A stretch of 64,000 bases of DNA from positions 1,364,001 through 1,428,000 of the forward strand of contig JBBPFI010000004.1 in NCBI GenBank assembly GCA_037974965.1, written 5' to 3'. Source of the DNA: Dacryopinax spathularia (Eukaryota; Basidiomycota; Dacrymycetes; Dacrymycetales; Dacrymycetaceae). Under the pieces are notes generated by a model. That model saw only the letters and a program-made list of their open reading frames with translations, was not told where the DNA came from and made no database searches. Position 1 is the stretch's first letter; every line of letters starts with the position of its first letter. The position numbers were made by a program, and so were the translations under genes. Positions 38,132-48,057 of the stretch are shown here, piece by piece.

Positions 38132-38476
38132 TGAGCTGCTTACCGGAATTTCGGCCACTATCGCGACTTCGACATAGGGACCGGACGCACGGGCAGGAGC
38201 GCTGGGCTGGATCCGCGATCCGAAACCTGCGTTTCGGATACGAAAAGGGTGGCGGACGAGTCCGAACTCATTAGTTAGATTCGTATATAAGCAGAGATGT
38301 GTAGCAGACATCCGTTATCGATTCCGTTTTACCCCCTTACTAGCTCTTTCTATACTTCGGCTTGACCACACGCCAGATCACTCTTTTCGACTCCGAAATA
38401 CGTACGGGACACCACCGAAAAGCCATATCGACGCTATCCCTTGATGCTCTGGGTCTAACCTAACAGTATCTATTCA
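38132..38476 (+). repeat. Left LTR
   Basis: 345 bp, TG...CA ends. TATA-like gtatataagcag at about 38283, a likely promoter. Matches the right LTR over its whole length. Confidence 0.93.
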
Positions 38477-38715
38477 TTTGGAGGTCGATTTGGGATATTT
38501 CGACTTGGCTTTCGACGTCCACTCGCCGATATAACGATACGCACGCCGCCAACCTGTCCACTCGTAGTGGAAAGCCGTACTCGACGGTTTCCTCTCGTCT
38601 ACCGATTCGCGCTACAACTTCGAACCATACCGTACGATCTCGCTCCGCCCCGGTCTCGTCCCGGAGTATCGAAAAACTTTCTATCCGACACACCGTTACT
38701 TCCGAAATATCCGAA

Positions 38716-40980
38716 ATGCCCACTGTAGACCCTGTTGTCTCAGCGCCACGCGGGAGCATGCCTCTCCGTACGGCCCGGCCGTATCTCGACAGTGTTGCAC
38801 CCGAAACAGTGGTACGGTACTTCGAAGATGTGGAGCAGTGTGCCGAAAATGCTGGGCTACCCCCGAAAGACTGTATCAAATGGGCACTTCGGTACGCGCC
38901 CACCGATGTTGCCGAAACCTGGAAAACCTTCCCATCCGCAGAGGGCGAGGATTACCCGGCGTTCAAACGGGATGTCCTAGGACTCTACCCCGGCGCGGTC
39001 GAAGACGACTCCCTTTACACGCGAAGCGATCTCGAACGGGTCGTGAGCATGAGCGCCGGCATCCAAATGCTTAACCGTGCTCAGCTCGCGGAATATCGCC
39101 GTGTGTTCCTTCGCATCTCGACATGGCTCAGCAAGAAGAAGCGAATTTCGGACTACGAAAGAAATGCGCTGTTCATGCGGGGATTTCATTACGAATTCCA
39201 GGACAAACTCCGGAACCGCCTGCTCATTAAAAAGCCTGACCAGCGTCCGGACGACCCATACGACATGGAGGACGTGATCGCGGCGGCTGAATTCCTGTTA
39301 GCCGGGACGTCTACAAGCGGTCCATATGTTCCGCTCACGACGGCGAGCTCGATACCTGCCGTACCGTCGCCGCCATCCGGTGGACATCAGTCCGGACCGG
39401 TTCCCAATCCTCCGGTGAAGACCGAAACGGAAGCCGGTCTAATGACAGCTATTTCGACTCTTATGACAACCGTCGAAACGCTCCTGCGACGTGATATGGA
39501 ACGCGGCGCGTTGCCACCGGCTGCAAGCGGGAATTTCGGTCAAGGGTACCCGACACAGGCGCCGCGACCTCCGATGAACCCGAATCCATCCAATAACGGA
39601 GGGTGTCTGTGGTGCGGACAGTCCGGACACATGATGAGAGAGTGTAACGATCTCGAAGAGCATCTTCGACGGGGCCTCGTGATCCGAAATGCTACTACAA
39701 ACCGTCTCACGCTACCGAACGGCATGTTGTTGCCCCGCGTAATGGGTGCGAACATGAAAGAGAACGTTATTTCCTGGCATAGTCGCAATCCGAATCAGAC
39801 GGTTGCAGACCTAAATGCTCGGGCAAACATTCCGAATCGTGGGAACGCCCCAGTAAACCTCGTCTCCGTTGTATCGGACGTTCCGCCTTTCACCATAGAC
39901 GTACCCAACGACGCCTTGCCCTTTCCGGTCGCCGATGTGCACTTGGCCCCGGCCGCGGACGAAGACGACGTGAGGGATCTGGAACGAACACTAGCGGTGC
40001 TTCAAACACAGCTGCACCGGGCCCGCAACCGAAGGCAACAGGAAGGAAGGCCGCTCCCCATACGTCGCGAACGTCCGGCCGAACCGCCGAGAGCTAAGGA
40101 AGTGCCGAACCGTCGCGGACGGGAAACAACACCGGAGGAAATTATCGAACGCTCGGTCGAGGAGAGGGAGATGGTCGATAAGCCAGTCGAAAACACCGAA
40201 AACAAGGAACCGACTCGTACTCATCTCAGAGCCCCAGTAGAGGACGATAGCCGAGCGGAAAAAGTTATTTCGTCCATAATGGCTAGCGAGCTGACCGTCT
40301 CGGTCCGGGATATGCTCGCAATTTCCCCTCAAATTCGAAAATATTTTTGTCAACAAACCACCACGAAGCGCCTGCCGAAGCCCAACACAGTCTTATCGGC
40401 AGAACCTACGGCACCCCTGGAGGTCATATCGGAAGATATCGAAAAACAGCTCCTGCCAGAGGCGCGAAGCGATATTTACGACTATGTGATGCATGTGTCC
40501 GGAAATCCGCAGGCGCCCAAAGGAGCCATTGTGGCTCTGTCAATGGTCGAGCTCCGGACCATAAACGTACTTGTTGGGGATGACGATGTAGCCGTCGCTG
40601 GCACGCTGGATTCCGGCGCATCGGTGGTTCTTATGAACCACGATATTTGGAAGAAGCTGCACATCGTTTACGAACAAACTCCGGGACACATCCGTTCTGC
40701 GAACGGGGCCACCACAGCAACGGAAGGGCTTATCCGAAATCTTCGTTTATCGGTCGGGCCGGTCACCGGTTTGTTTCAGGTTCACGTCATAAAGAATCTC
40801 CCGGTTCTACTGCTTTTGGGAAGGCCGTTCCTTACGCTATTCAACGCCGAAATGAAGGACTTCGGTAATGGCGAATCGGAGCTGACCATAACATGCCCGA
40901 ATACCGGGATTACTGTTGTCCTCGCGACTCACGCAGCCGGAAATCATTCCGAACCGGCTGCGATAGAGGAGGATTTTTAG
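38716..40980 (+). CDS. gag: Retrotransposon Gag with protease domain
   Basis: 754-codon frame. Capsid-like helical region in the first 250 residues (for example NALFMRGFHYEFQDKLRNRL), a zinc knuckle CLWCGQSGHMMREC (C-x2-C-x4-H-x4-C) near residue 296, a basic linker, and a retroviral-type aspartic protease with the active-site triad in TLDSGASVVLM near residue 635, plus LLLLGRPFL further on. Part of the young Ty3/gypsy element. The end of this frame overlaps the start of pol, which suggests programmed frameshifting as known for the family. Confidence 0.88.
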   Translation: MPTVDPVVSAPRGSMPLRTARPYLDSVAPETVVRYFEDVEQCAENAGLPPKDCIKWALRYAPTDVAETWKTFPSAEGEDYPAFKRDVLGLYPGAVEDDSLYTRSDLERVVSMSAGIQMLNRAQLAEYRRVFLRISTWLSKKKRISDYERNALFMRGFHYEFQDKLRNRLLIKKPDQRPDDPYDMEDVIAAAEFLLAGTSTSGPYVPLTTASSIPAVPSPPSGGHQSGPVPNPPVKTETEAGLMTAISTLMTTVETLLRRDMERGALPPAASGNFGQGYPTQAPRPPMNPNPSNNGGCLWCGQSGHMMRECNDLEEHLRRGLVIRNATTNRLTLPNGMLLPRVMGANMKENVISWHSRNPNQTVADLNARANIPNRGNAPVNLVSVVSDVPPFTIDVPNDALPFPVADVHLAPAADEDDVRDLERTLAVLQTQLHRARNRRQQEGRPLPIRRERPAEPPRAKEVPNRRGRETTPEEIIERSVEEREMVDKPVENTENKEPTRTHLRAPVEDDSRAEKVISSIMASELTVSVRDMLAISPQIRKYFCQQTTTKRLPKPNTVLSAEPTAPLEVISEDIEKQLLPEARSDIYDYVMHVSGNPQAPKGAIVALSMVELRTINVLVGDDDVAVAGTLDSGASVVLMNHDIWKKLHIVYEQTPGHIRSANGATTATEGLIRNLRLSVGPVTGLFQVHVIKNLPVLLLLGRPFLTLFNAEMKDFGNGESELTITCPNTGITVVLATHAAGNHSEPAAIEEDF

Positions 40981-43900
40981 GAGTCAAGGACCCGGCAAAC
41001 CTACGGCGAGACGACCAGATGATATCGACATTAGCCCTTCTTATTCCACGAATAGACATTATCGATCGCGAAACCTTCTCTCAACATTATTACTTCGATA
41101 CCATCCAACATGCGCTCGCGATCCGAAAATACAAGAAAGTCGACGAGCGCGTGAAACCCGTTCCGGCACCACACCCGGAGCACCTAAAAATACGACGTCG
41201 TTTCCCTTCAAATCCTCTCGAGCACATGAAGCCTTTACCGAAACATCCGCCTGAGTTTTCCCCGGGCTTTCGACTTACCCAGGAACAGTTCGATGCCTTG
41301 AACATCAACCGACATAACTTCCTTTGGCCGGAAGAGGAGAAACTGGTGGCGTGGATTTATCGCGAACACGAAAATGCTTTTTCTTGGACAGAGTCCGAAA
41401 TTGGGCGTTTTCGTGATGACTACTTCGATCCAGTCGTTTTTCCTACAGTCGAACACACTCCATGGCAGGAGCGAAATATACCCATCCCTCCCGGTATTCT
41501 CGAGAGCGTCCTCGACATGCTTCGCGAGAAGGTGAAGGCCGGAACGTATGAGCCCTCCCAATCTGCGTACAGGTCGAAGTGGTTCGTCGTACCGAAAAAG
41601 AGTGGGGAGCACCGATTGGTTATCGATGCACGGCCGCTCAATGGCGTCATGATCCGAAGCACATCGGTCCCACCCATTACGGAACATCTCCTGGAAAGTT
41701 ACGGCGGACGCGCCTGTTATGGACTCCTAGACTTCTATCGCGGTTTTGAGCAACATTCGCTCGCTCCAGAATCGCGGGATCTGACGTCCTTCCAAACGCT
41801 CATCGGGCCTCTTCGCTATACTGTCGCCCCTATGGGAGCTCACAATATGCCTGGCATCATGCAGGATAATGTGAATTTCTTGTTTAGCGACGAGATTCCT
41901 CATATCACAACGCCCTTTATCGACGACTTAGGCATCAAAGGACCGACGACTCGTTACGAGACTAGAGGCGGGTACGAAACGATTCGCGAGAACAATGGCA
42001 TACGCCGCTTTGTGTTCGAACACCTCACGAATGTTCACCGGATCATTACCCGCGCGGAGCATGCTGGAGCGACTTTCTCCGGGCCAAAGGCGGAGTTATG
42101 CTCTCCCGAAATTATCCTTTTGGGTCATCGATGTTCATACGAAGGGCGACACCCTGATCCAGCGAAGGTGCAAAAGATAATCGAATGGAAACTACCTTGC
42201 GAAAACATTTCGGAGGTACGCGCCTTTTTGGGAACTGTTGGTATAATGCGAATTTTCATTCGCGATTTCGCCCGCATTGCTCGACCCCTTGAGAACCTCA
42301 AACGAAAGGACGTAGAGTTCCGTTTCGGCGATCGCGAATGGAACGCGGTACGCCAGCTCCAGGCAGCAGCCCTCGAAGCGGAACGCAATCACGTCCTGAC
42401 CCCGATCGATTACAAATGTGGACGCCGCGTCATCCTTGCTGTGGACTCTTCGAACATCGCGGTAGGTTTCGTACTATATCAAGAGGATGAAAAGGGGCGG
42501 CGGCGTCCATGTCGATTTGGCTCGGTCGCATGGAACGACAGAGAATCAAAATACTCTCAACCTAAACTCGAACTGTACGGAGTGTATCAGGCACTTCGAC
42601 ATTACCGTATCTGGCTGGTCGGCTTGCCCGAGTTTACGCTCGAAGTGGACGCGAAATATATCAAAGGAATGCTGAACAATCCCGACGCATGCCCAACTAC
42701 GGTGCTTAACCGATGGGTCTCCTGGATTCACCTATTCCCATTCAAACTTGTACACGTACCGGCGGACCGACACGTTGCTCCGGACGGGTTATCGCGGCGA
42801 CCACCCGCCGATATTGCCGAAATTAAGGACCGACTCCCAGACGATTTTGAAGATGATACGCTTAACCTGTCTCAGGTGTTCACGTTAGAACTCGCGTCGC
42901 AGCCGCGAGTTCCAGTTCTTTTGGCGCAGGGGGGGGATGATCCCGGCGCAGAAGCGGAGATACCCCGTGACGCCAAGACCGCGAAGCAGGACGAGACGAT
43001 CGAAAAGGTTATTCGATACCTTCGGTCCTTCCGCCGGCCTCCGCGTATGCTCGACAAAGAGTTCAAAGCGTTCTTACGGTATACCACGAAATTCTTCCTG
43101 CGGGGCGAAGACGATTTGTACAAGAGAGACAGCAACGGAAAGCACCGGCTTTACGTTTCATATCCAGATCGATTCGAGATACTAGAGGCAATGCATGACG
43201 ACCTTGGTCACCGCGGGTTCAGGACGGTACACGCTCACATCCGGCTCCGGTATTGGTGGCCCAGTCTTACACAAGACGTTAAGTGGTTTCTCAAGACGTG
43301 CGACCAATGCCAGGCGCAACAAATGAAACATGTATACATTCCACCGACTGCACAAATGCCGCAGAACCTCTTCTATAGAGCCCACTGCGACACGATGTTT
43401 ATGCCAGTATCGCGAGGCAAGCAACGGGGTTATCGGTACATATTTCAGGCCCGCTGCTCTCTCACACATTATCCGGAGTTCGCGATCTCGAAAACCGAAA
43501 ATGCCGAAAATATTGCGGAGTTCCTGTATAGTTCCGTGCTATGCCGCTGGGGTGCTATTGCCGAAATCGTCAGCGACAACGGTACGCCTTGGGTCCGCGC
43601 GTTAGAACAGCTCGCGGAAAAGTATAGCATAACGCATATCCGAATTTCGGGGTACAACTCGCGCGCGAATGGGACGGTCGAACAGAGTCATCGGAACGTT
43701 CGCGAATCTATCGTCAAGGTCTGCAAAGGAAATACAGCCGATTGGCCAGCTTCTGTACCAGCCGTATTCTGGGCGGAACGCATTTCGGTGCATACGGCAA
43801 CCGGCATGAGTCCATATTACATGGCGCATGGGACGCATCCTACGTTACCAATGGATATTGTTCAAGCAACCTGGTTGGTTCCACCTCCGGAGAAAATATT

Positions 43901-44411
43901 CAGCCGAGCAGAACTCATAGCCTACCGTGCAAGACAATTGCTCAAACGCGAGACGGATTTGAATGAGATCCGGCGTCGAATCCTGCAGGCTCGGCAAGTA
44001 TCGGCCGAGCGGTTTCGCAGAAAGTTCGAAAATATAATATCGGACGAAACGTTTGAACCGGGCCGCTTGGTATTGATTCGAAACACTGCGAACGACGGAC
44101 CGATGCGAGATAAAACCCTTCCACGATATCTCGGTCCCTTCGTTGTCGTCAAACGCACACGCGGTGGAGCATATGTGGTCGCAGACCTTGACGGCACGCC
44201 TTTTCGAAATTCCATCGCGGCCTTCAGGATCATTCCGTACTATGCTCGTTTGGATTTGAGGACGCACATCGACGCAATACTGCGTAAGCTTCGGGAAGCG
44301 CCATACGCGGTCGATGTGGACCTGCAGGCACGGCGGCCGGGAGAAGAACGGGAAGCCGCAGAAGACGACGAAGCAGAAGACGACGAAGCAGAGGACGACG
44401 AAGAAGAAAAA

Positions 44412-44458
<47 letters not shown>

Positions 44459-44513
44459 AGAAGAAGGAGAGGACGAAGACGACGGAGAGGACGACGATGC
44501 GGCAGACATATGA
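40893..44513 (+). CDS. pol: Retrotransposon Pol: reverse transcriptase, RNase H, integrase
   Basis: Open for about 1206 codons, overlapping the gag frame at its start. Reverse transcriptase with KKSGEHRLVIDARPLN and the catalytic FIDDLG step, RNase H with ILAVDSSNIAVGFVLYQ, integrase zinc finger (H-x-H...CDQCQ around residues 768-810), and the DDE core with AHCDTMF, VSDNGTPW and NGTVEQSHR. The C-terminus ends in a long Glu/Asp tract from a GAA/GAG/GAC microsatellite at about 44360-44500. I see no chromodomain. Confidence 0.9.
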
Positions 44514-44764
44514 AGCCGGAAAAATCCGAAATACCATTTCGAACCTAGACGACATAGACTTAGACGTCGCAAGCCTGCATACCAGACACCATAGGCCAAA
44601 TACCTTAAAGTCCTTCGATCCGAAATTACCGAAATTCACGCGATTGGTTTTTCACACTGTTTCTTTCCACCGCACTATCTATCGTACAGCAAGAACTACC
44701 TGGAGCATTTCTAACTACCGCTCCCTCCATTTCGACCCGCTGCCGAAACCCTCCGGACTCCGCT

Positions 44765-47183
44765 TTACTCCTCGTCGGACTCGACGCGCTCCATGTCGTC
44801 GTCCTTGGGGACAACACGGACGAGGCGCGACTCGTCGAACGTCTTGCCCTCGCGCAGGATCGCGTAGACCGTCGCGTGGGTCTTCCTGTCCTCGAGCGCG
44901 TCCTGCAAGTTGCCGAGGGAGTGCGACATCATCGCGACGAGCGAGGCGGCCAGTTCGACCTCGTCGCGCAAGATGTCGACCGCTTTATCTATACCAAAGG
45001 TCAATCGAAATATACGAAATAAACGAAATGAACTTACGGAGGGGGAGCCGGAGCGCAGCGGCGACGGGGCAGTTTTCCGTCTTCGGGTTGGGCTCCGCCA
45101 TGATCGCGACCTTCGCCCGCTTGCCGGAAGGGCCGGGTGCCGCGTCGTCGACCTCGCCGATATCGCGTTTGACGCCGACACGATGACGGCGGGCCGCTAC
45201 AATTACAGATTAGCGACGTCCGAAAAGCTCCGAAAAACCGAAAACACTCACTGGCCTGGGCGAAGTCACATCCGCCACGATCGCGATGCTTGAGACACTG
45301 GTCACAGATCCGACCACGGCGCAGAGCAATGTCGTCCGCCGTCGGATCGAAACGGTACCCTCCGGAACACGATCGGCCACGCTCCAAGCATTGGTTGCAC
45401 TAGATGCGAGTCAGCATTCCGTAAAATAGGAAGAAAAACGACGCAAAAACATACCGGGTCGTCGTTGGGAAGTCCAGGAGTGCGCTATCGGACCGACATG
45501 AGCTCGGTAGACTCCTCTACATATCGCGAACACGTACCTCCTTCTTCTTCTCCTTTCCCTTCCCCTTTCCCTTCGCCTTCGGCTTCGGCTTCGTCTTGGC
45601 GGCAGTCGCAACGGACGGGAGCGACTCGGCATCCTACGTATGATGTCAGTACGTTTCGCGATGGTAACTCGAAGGCACTCACCGACTCCGGCACAATTGC
45701 GGCCGACTTGACCTTACGGCGGCGAGGGCCCCTTGCAGCGGACGACTCCTTTTCCTATCGCACCGGTCAGAAGCAGTTCGCGAACGCTGTAGAAAACAAA
45801 CGTACCGTGTCCGAGAGGACGACGACCACCTCTTCCCTCGCTCGCGGTTTCGCGACCTCCTTCTTCTCCTTCTTCACCTCCTTCGCCGGCTCCAGCGTCT
45901 TCGCGATCGACCGCCTGGCGGTCTCGACCTTCTTCACGACGGGCGCCGGATCGCGCGCCGTCACCCTTGCCTTAGCCGCGACCTACAGCAATGTGTTAGC
46001 ATTCGGACATGCCGAAAACACCGAAAATGCGTACCTGTGCCGGGCTCGGCGCGATATCTTCACCCTCCTCGATGGGAGGGCCGCGTACACCGATCGCGAA
46101 GTCAGGAACTCCCTACCAAGTACAAGTCAGTGATCGAAACGAATATCGAAGCTACCGAAAAACGTACCTTGGCCCTTTTCCAGGCCGCCTGCGTCGCAGG
46201 ACCAAAGTAACGGACGCGGACCTTGTCCACATCCGCGATCGTACCGTTCTTCGCTGCCAGAGCAGCTATCAAATGGCGCTACAAATCCGTATTAGCCATA
46301 AACGAACCGAAAAGAAAAAGGAAAACGTACACGGACGGCGCGAACATTATCGTCGTTCGCCGCCCACACCGCTCTGTCTTCCGGCTTGGCCGGGATGGTC
46401 AGGACGACCTCCCGGACGCTCCGCACGACCGGGACGATCTCCGCGATCTCTTCCTCCGACTCGATCGCCTCCTCCTCCGACTCCAGCGCCTCCTCGAACG
46501 ACTCCTCCGCATCGACATAGTCGATAACGGCCGGAGCCGCCACGATCTTCTTCGGCGCGGCGACGGGCCTTGCCGCGATCTTTTTGGCCGGTTCGGCAAC
46601 CGGTGCCGGCGTCTTCTCCTTCGTCGCGACAGCCTTCGGCGTAGCTGACCTCCGGACGGAGGTCGACTTCGCCTTTTCGGCGGCCTTCGGCGTAGCGACC
46701 GTCTTCGCGACCTTCGGCGCAGGCGCGGGCGGTGCGACTTCCTCCATCGGCTCGTCCTCAGCGATCGCGACGTTGTCCGCAGTCGGCACAACGTCTTCTT
46801 CAGCCGGGACAGCGCTGTCCACGACCATGTCGTCCGCCTCTTCAGCCTCAACGGCCGGCGCGACCGCTTCGCCTTGATCGTCGGCGGGCGCAGCAATATC
46901 GGCTGCCTCCGCTTCACTATCAGCCTGTTATAAAAAAAAAAAAAAAAAACGTCAGCAGCAAGTTCTATCCGAAAAACAATACCGGGCGCACCTGTTCAAC
47001 TTCCCCTGCTTCTCCTTCCTCCTTCTCCTCCTCCTCCGCCGCCTTCGGAGTCGTCTCGGCGGGCGTCGTCGACTTGCGCGCCGCACGCTTGGCGCGTTCG
47101 TCCTGCTGGGCGCGAACTCCAGCGAGCTCCATTTCGGCCTTGCGAAGCCGGTCTTCGGGCTGCATGCGGGGCGCCATAGACAT
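44765..47183 (-). CDS. Antisense multi-exon gene carried by the retrotransposon
   Basis: Between pol and the right LTR the minus strand carries a chain of about ten short exons, from ATG at 47183 to a stop at 44765, separated by short GT-AG introns. Many donors read gtacg. The product is an Ala/Glu/Lys-rich charged protein (for example KVEKKEKKEVAKPR-like stretches). In its later part it has paired cysteines of the form CNQCLERGRSC and CDQCLKHRDRGGC, and it ends in a helical segment (AVDILRDEVELAASLVAMM) and acidic DDDMERVESDEE. The cysteine pairs recall small zinc-binding or DNA-binding proteins. One intron ends in an unusual run of about 18 T. The family is unknown to me. It is not env-like: no signal peptide or TM. 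Confidence 0.6.
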
Positions 47184-47502
47184 TTGAAGTAAACTAAAGT
47201 GAAAGTCGAGATGTCGGTGGTGACGAAGGTGGAGAAAAGAGAGAGACAACGAAATGGGCGGCGTCAGAGACAAACATAATGAGTCGAAATTTTGGTTCCG
47301 CACGCGGATGCCGACACGTGCTTCTCTTTCGGCAAAGACCCTAACCAGGACCGACAGAAATTCGGACAAGTCGCCATTCGAAATAGCAAAACTGCTCAAA
47401 TTCGACTAAAACGGTTGGAACAAATTGCCGCCAATGCGTCGCACCCGACTCCGGTACGATCCAGCAGCATCTCGGTTGGTACGAACCGTTCGCGAACATC
47501 TC

Positions 47503-47592
47503 GTTCTCCCTTTCGCTCTCTCTCTCTCTCTCCCTCTTTCTCTCTCTCTCTCTCTTTCTCCCTCTTTCGCTCCTTCTTTCTCTCCCTCTTGT
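47503..47592 (+). repeat. CT-rich microsatellite in the retrotransposon
   Basis: (CT)n with CCCT and TTTC interruptions. It lies between the start of the antisense gene and the right LTR, where a promoter of the antisense gene would sit. Confidence 0.85.
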
Positions 47593-47712
47593 TCCTTCCG
47601 TCGTTCTTGCCAGTTTCTATTCGACTCCTTTCCTTCCTTTCGTTTCCACCCCAACACGGTGCCCTACAAGCCAGTTGACTGGGGACAGTCAAGATCTAAG
47701 GTGGGGCGTGGA

Positions 47713-48057
47713 TGAGCTGCTTACCGGAATTTCGGCCACTATCGCGACTTCGACATAGGGACCGGACGCACGGGCAGGAGCGCTGGGCTGGATCCGCGAT
47801 CCGAAACCTGCGTTTCGGATACGAAAAGGGTGGCGGACGAGTCCGAACTCATTAGTTAGATTCGTATATAAGCAGAGATGTGTAGCAGACATCCGTTATC
47901 GATTCCGTTTTACCCCCTTACTAGCTCTTTCTATACTTCGGCTTGACCACACGCCAGATCACTCTTTTCGACTCCGAAATACGTACGGGACACCACCGAA
48001 AAGCCATATCGACGCTATCCCTTGATGCTCTGGGTCTAACCTAACAGTATCTATTCA
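47713..48057 (+). repeat. Right LTR
   Basis: 345 bp, TG...CA ends, alike to the left LTR throughout. The host gene resumes at 48058. Confidence 0.93.

Follow-up and report, generated by a model that had tools for sequence, protein, structure and literature searches.

A multi-intron antisense gene in Ty3/gypsy-like retrotransposons of Dacryopinax spathularia, and the zinc-binding regulatory protein that it may encode

Antisense accessory genes are known from the plant Retand elements and from the HTLV retroviruses. In the Retand lineage of plant Ty3/gypsy elements (Grande, RIRE2 and Retand), antisense ORFs encode TRP28. According to the available text of that study, all clusters of recent elements have a potential antisense coding region located between pol and the 3' LTR, TRP28 is found in 97% of the clusters, where DNA binding is predicted for it and regulation of transposition suggested, and the antisense product of Grande is nuclear (PMC11963269). 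HBZ of HTLV-1 and APH-2 of HTLV-2 are nuclear proteins made from spliced antisense transcripts, and the accessible part of the source states that they reduce viral expression or replication (PMC10186651). The LTR retrotransposons of bdelloid rotifers have additional ORF3s, which the excerpted description presents as separate transcription units with spliced messages; the types named there are env, DEDDy, GDSL, CC and TM (PMC5408684).

The locus described here lies in a 64,000-nucleotide stretch of the genome of the basidiomycete Dacryopinax spathularia, hereafter the window. As in Retand, the antisense strand of its retrotransposon has a conserved coding region in the interval from pol to the 3' LTR. 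The element differs in that this region is a multi-intron gene, whereas those of Retand are described as ORFs with introns unmentioned in the available text, and in that it comes from a fungus rather than a flowering plant (PMC11963269). Like HBZ and APH-2, it is an antisense gene of an LTR element, with splicing predicted. HBZ, however, is a bZIP protein of an animal virus and is expressed from the 3' LTR, and its spliced and unspliced forms, as the consulted part of the source gives them, differ at the 5' end of the message and include no 11-exon gene (PMC10186651). The rotifer ORF3s also differ, since nothing in the excerpts presents them as antisense genes that contain introns (PMC5408684). 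No fungal LTR element with a multi-intron antisense gene was among the matches listed in a literature search, most subscription papers being outside its coverage. Antisense accessory genes are known as such; new among them is the multi-intron fungal form.

The element and its antisense gene

The LTR retrotransposon occupies positions 38132-48057 of the window. Its two 345-bp LTRs (5' LTR, 38132-38476; 3' LTR, 47713-48057; both plus strand) are identical, have TG...CA ends and are flanked on the left and right sides by a 4-bp GCGT target-site duplication. The gag-protease ORF (38716-40980, plus strand) encodes 754 amino acids, residues 624-706 being the aspartyl protease. The pol ORF (40893-44513, plus strand) is in another frame and encodes 1206 amino acids with a Glu/Asp-rich tail. 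Protease, RNase H and the integrase zinc-binding (H2C2) domain were found by Pfam above the cut-off in Ty3/gypsy order; RVT_1 is at the right place in pol, below the Pfam cut-off (18.8 vs 29.6 bits). When pol was used as the query in a protein search, 1203 of the 7992 candidates scored were relatives. The organisms named among the best 120 are Leucocoprinus, Rhodofomes, Pleurotus (two) and Candolleomyces (two), which we take to be basidiomycete genera, at 43-54% identity; scans of IMG/VR with pol and with the pol alignment found no relatives. The element is a Ty3/gypsy-like LTR retrotransposon with the antisense gene between pol and the right LTR, as the first-pass annotation had placed it. 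The C-terminus of pol, at 44360-44500, is a Glu/Asp-rich run of short repeats whose length differs between copies. Residues 444-552 of gag (40045-40371) show a sub-threshold match to DUF4100 (PF13352, 24.9 vs 27.9 bits), a domain that is also listed for some of the pol relatives.

The antisense gene runs from 47183 to 44765 on the minus strand. It starts with an ATG at 47183, ends with a TAA at 44767-44765, and has 11 exons with a coding length of 1881 nt, giving a predicted product of 626 amino acids (626 codons). The ten introns are 49-67 nt each; all ten have GT-AG boundaries and the donors of five start with GTACG. The ends are those that the first-pass annotation had given, and the GT-AG sites with frequent gtacg donors are as it had described them. 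Its count of about ten exons was right as to the multi-exon structure and one short as to the exact number.

All exons are on the minus strand. Exon 1 (46992-47183) carries the ATG. Exon 2 (46331-46924) encodes an acidic and Ala/Lys/Pro-rich stretch and the beginning of the first of two domains shared with other families; the core of this domain 1 is in exon 3 (46168-46278). Exons 4 (46035-46112), 5 (45806-45982) and 6 (45683-45754), given by the gene model and the gene finder alike, are followed by the Lys/Gly-rich exon 7 (45538-45633) and by exon 8 (45455-45484), which is 30 nt long. Exon 9 (45252-45399) begins exactly at the first Cys codon of a six-cysteine, zinc-cluster-like domain, CX2CX6C-X20-CX2CX8C. 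Exon 10 (45038-45196) encodes the basic segment after the cysteines and exon 11 (44765-44988) the acidic end with the TAA stop. Both cysteine motifs and the acidic tail reported earlier are present.

The gene was also modelled with a gene finder whose codon scores came from the sense gag and pol ORFs only and whose splice scores were generic for fungi. It recovered the identical ten introns and stop, with the start two codons later, at a score of 68.0; the sense strand of the same region scored 17.6. A gene scoring at least 8 appeared in four of 100 dinucleotide shuffles, with 12.8 as the highest score. Because 68.0 is far above the shuffles, chance is excluded. Over-reading was rejected on the same shuffles, on conservation across copies and on the codon pattern. 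The antisense multi-exon gene in the window is confirmed to be real.

Copies, introns and selection

The window's element belongs to what is called family A here; families B, C and D are its relatives in the same genome. A DNA search of the 29.2-Mb assembly with the 2419-base antisense gene gave 15 matches, eight near-full (2418 or 2419 of 2419 bases, 84-100% identity) and seven partial. When spliced at the same places, six of the eight near-full copies give an uninterrupted product; the reading frame is broken by one internal stop in L008 and by a frameshift in L007. The introns start with GT in 80 of 80 cases and have AG at the aligned acceptor in 79 of 80, the exception being intron 1 of L003, where an AG that preserves the frame is found 3 nt upstream. 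Apart from the frameshifted L007, exons change in length by multiples of three, and the introns differ between copies in length and sequence. Mean identity by segment is 88.3-94.6% for exons and 72.9-89.5% for introns, two ranges that overlap slightly. The exon pattern, the loss of which in other copies would have spoken against the first-pass annotation, is kept in all eight near-full copies.

LTR elements are expected to lose sense-strand introns on retrotransposition. They replicate through the sense genomic RNA, and an intron of the opposite strand is not spliced out of it; the arrangement is the mirror image of laboratory antisense-intron reporters. In the window's element, replication would copy a sense RNA that carries the introns as CT...AC, and they would persist because that RNA offers no substrate for splicing them. 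The spliced antisense mRNA would not be the template for replication. The first-pass annotation had argued from strand in this way, and the copies fit the argument, all ten introns being kept in eight of eight near-full copies with no intronless copy among them.

The LTR pairs of five of the eight copies were compared and showed 0, 1, 1, 1 and 5 differences in 344-345 sites. The four pairs with 0 or 1 differences are recent insertions. Of the five family A copies checked, all but the one on C7 have matching 4-bp flanks. This C7 copy is nested: at C7:1305645-1318083 the last exon of a family C antisense gene is interrupted by a family A element (LTRs at 1305935-1306279 and 1315516-1315860), whose outer flanks lack the matching 4-bp duplication. 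Pieces of an older antisense gene copy, 79-81% identical, were found at C1:2478070-2500595 and C8:348393-365061. At both places 10 bp separate the end of the same piece from the LTR of a young element, a pattern that suggests segmental duplication or recombination of a nested insertion.

Selection on the antisense gene, a test that had been proposed with the original reading, was measured over the six intact copies (15 pairs, L007 and L008 left out). The mean dN/dS is 0.21 (range 0.16-0.68), and nonsynonymous changes are depleted at p < 1e-6 in 14 of the 15 pairs. The exception is the pair L002-L004, with 17 nonsynonymous and 8 synonymous changes (p 0.25); pol has stops in both copies, and the pattern is as expected for decay after insertion. 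For comparison, dN/dS is 0.05 for gag-pro (six pairs from four copies) and 0.04 for pol (one pair only). The antisense gene is under purifying selection but is less constrained than gag-pol. An arms race could produce such a difference (0.21 vs 0.05 in gag-pro) if the protein were aimed at the host, countering silencing by DNA methylation, heterochromatin or RNA interference, so that selection would be for escape and not for self-regulation. Its acidic and Lys/Ala/Pro-rich sequence and its zinc-cluster-like domain would suit a protein that acts on chromatin. However, looser constraint also fits a low-complexity protein and the family A protein has no Pfam domain; a host target is considered unlikely, and regulation of the element itself is the reading followed below.

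The flanks of the gene are conserved as strongly as its exons (5', 93.6%; 3', 95.9%). Part of the conservation around the antisense gene is therefore non-coding, and coding does not explain the flanks. If all of it were of this kind, the sequence would be kept for the genomic RNA or an antisense RNA, and the open frame would be incidental. The changes, however, are concentrated at third codon positions: among the six intact copies the variable columns number 47, 31 and 117 at the three positions, of 627 each. Insertions and deletions in the exons of intact copies come in multiples of three, while the introns vary in length and sequence between copies. The codon pattern argues strongly against an RNA-only function, which is very improbable, and for a protein-coding gene. 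On the 3' side, the 135 nt past the antisense stop (44630-44764) are 95.9% identical over the eight copies, above the exons, possibly as a shared 3' processing signal or a genomic RNA signal.

Related antisense genes in families B, C and D

A genome search with pol identified family B. Three of its copies match the window's pol along its length at 67-68% identity; in a fourth copy, on C11, pol matches in two pieces at 73% and 58%. The pol of family C is 64-66% identical in its first part and 53-54% in its second. The LTRs, taken from one element each, are 365 bp and 99.7% identical in B and about 466 bp and 100% identical in C. The gene finder scored the antisense strands after pol at 55.3 (B), 72.6 (C) and 65.5 (D), and the sense strands at 9.9-15.9. 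The refined models have 10 exons and 654 amino acids in B and 8 exons and 716 amino acids in C, guidance having been taken from A and from other copies; B was retested after refinement. A first B model, which counted an open intron as coding and placed the start too far upstream, was discarded; with it, two other copies had seemed frameshifted, with dN/dS of 1.3-1.4 over the short parts compared. In C, the acceptor of the cysteine exon was set by hand, guided by A, to the TAG before the first Cys, the finder having taken a later one. Further copies are constrained as in family A: in B, L062 is intact with a dN/dS of 0.19, while codon 12 of L066 is a stop and its dN/dS is 0.12, and the one further C copy examined is intact with 0.18 (Fisher p for the B and C comparisons 5e-14, 6e-18 and 5e-20).

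The proteins of the three families are related. By blastp, A matches B at 2.7e-13 (36% identity) in the cysteine region and at 4.3e-9 (29%) in domain 1; A-C gives 1.7e-5 (28%) and B-C 3.9e-8 (27%). Four introns are aligned across the families. Two, both phase 0, bound the core of domain 1, that is, exon 3 in A. Of the others, one in phase 0 immediately precedes the first Cys and one in phase 1 follows the last Cys by a few residues. All four positions are identical in A and B; C is displaced by one residue at the second and the fourth. No further intron is aligned across all three families. Protein searches of the genome located four B loci and six C loci, each adjoining a pol match. In every copy with an adjacent pol match, 17 of 17 (seven of seven A, four of four B, six of six C), the gene is on the strand opposite to pol. 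The eighth family A copy (C9 at 730856) is without one. Judged by these sequence comparisons, the antisense gene is an old, inherited accessory gene common to several element families. The first-pass annotation had called it a cargo gene and proposed looking for it in other copies; the copies exist, and the label understates a gene of such distribution.

Short GT-AG introns are also what a captured host gene would have, and such a gene could ride along as a passenger of no use to the element. Two things speak against this. The gene is under purifying selection in three families, with pol at 53-68% identity, and, among the best candidates scored, the A, B and C proteins have no matches in the genome other than copies of the elements or parts of such copies; the reading of a host paralogue was rejected on these matches. 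A useless passenger is improbable, and an accessory gene of the elements is the better description. Outside this genome, in a database of 5.8 billion proteins, no relatives were found for residues 250-626 of A (scored on the 7995 candidates with the most words in common, a list that low-complexity words may have crowded) or for residues 400-654 of B (1340 candidates, E up to 1); the conservation is thus that seen within one genome.

A gene of seven to ten introns has survived in these elements, with shared intron positions in three families, because it is on the strand opposite to the element's own genes. Introns in a retroelement become in this way markers of vertical inheritance.

Family D is more distant, with a pol 47-48% identical to the window's and, in one element, LTRs of 474 bp that are 98.9% identical. 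A first D model had merged two genes and was discarded; it was split and the part adjacent to pol retested. The antisense gene adjoining pol has 5 exons and 838 amino acids. In a second copy it is open, exon lengths are unchanged, four of four introns are GT-AG and dN/dS is 0.18. Over the five exons the pair differs at 21 of 1881 nonsynonymous and 38 of 634 synonymous sites (p 1.5e-10), with mismatches of 11, 12 and 36 by codon position. Similarity of the D protein to those of A-C was undetected (best E 1.1), and its gene is apparently unrelated to theirs. As controls, the 4 kb after the pol match, not bounded by LTRs, were taken from two distant Ty3-like elements (25% and 29% identity). In the first, the sense frame runs on (score 31.4) into an apparent chromodomain and the antisense strand gives a two-exon gene scoring 14.2; in the second, the antisense strand of the 4 kb gives no gene. 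At C9:457581-465224 (L058, L067), 7.6 kb separate the pol of D from its 3' LTR. A candidate for a second long antisense gene, of 855 amino acids, is near the LTR there, mostly outside the coverage of the second copy.

The predicted protein and its possible role

The family A protein is largely acidic or Lys/Ala/Pro-rich and of low complexity, with two conserved domains. An alignment of the cysteine domain from three A, one B and one C sequence has 14 invariant columns, six of which are the cysteines, and basic residues then follow. Six cysteines followed by basic residues are also found in the fungal Zn2Cys6 (Gal4-type) transcription factors, the spacing of which is CX2CX6CX5-12CX2CX6-8C. The spacing in family C, CX2CX6C-X8-CX2CX6C, fits this exactly. 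The loop between the third and fourth cysteines exceeds that of the canonical cluster in A, with 20 residues, and in B, with 19, and the Pfam cut-off for Zn_clus (PF00172, 21 bits) is missed, B scoring 9.3 and C 7.1, with no match for A. Pfam on the whole A protein, with E up to 1, gives no family. It shows no bZIP match, and an env-like gene, already dismissed in the earlier reading, was rejected since Pfam gives no match. TRP28 (PF04195) is absent from the A protein (E up to 1) and from the whole B protein and the C-terminal pieces of A and C (E up to 10). A PDB profile search with the cysteine domain returned ribosomal proteins only (best E 0.024), taken as chance.

The antisense gene may encode a zinc-binding regulatory protein. 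The spliced message would encode a protein mostly of low complexity; of its two conserved domains, one is a putative Zn2Cys6-like cluster of six cysteines with basic residues after it. Such a product would act in the nucleus on DNA or chromatin and control how active the element is, in the way that HBZ acts on HTLV-1. These motifs are weak ones, and on them we think it probable that the protein is a DNA- or chromatin-binding nuclear regulator of this kind. A putative DNA-binding domain could also serve to tether the integration complex to target DNA or chromatin, and Pfam shows no chromodomain in the window's pol. Expression from the antisense strand would, however, separate the protein from the packaging of gag-pol, and we see little likelihood in tethering as its role; regulation of the element remains the preferred one.

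A wider reading takes the families together. The gene would be a spliceosome-dependent, multi-intron antisense regulator inherited with pol (pol 53-68% identical, the matched protein 27-36%), with the introns at both shared domains fixed. Together with D, it would represent a recurrent solution of LTR elements, convergent with TRP28 of Retand and with HBZ, in which the asymmetry of the strands protects the introns and makes the regulator depend on nuclear splicing. The chances of this whole picture are, in our judgement, about even. The element would gain a regulator whose mRNA cannot be the replicating RNA. That HBZ-like antisense regulators arose independently in fungi, plants and animal retroviruses is a claim that can be tested, and genes of this type may go unnoticed in fungal genomes or be taken for host genes in annotation.

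Transcription would start from an internal promoter of the gene's own, just upstream of 47183. The predicted promoter and 5' leader (47184-47373, minus strand) were placed by conservation over the eight copies: the 140 nt before the ATG are 90-97% identical, the preceding 50 nt 89%, and the stretch toward the LTR 75-84%. The conserved block suggests a start that is internal rather than in the 3' LTR. The antisense gene of Grande is reportedly transcribed from its own promoter, by the title of a paper on that element. Positions 47516-47568 of the window, within the variable stretch that separates the conserved block from the 3' LTR, are an unbroken run of C and T, which is GA-rich on the antisense strand.
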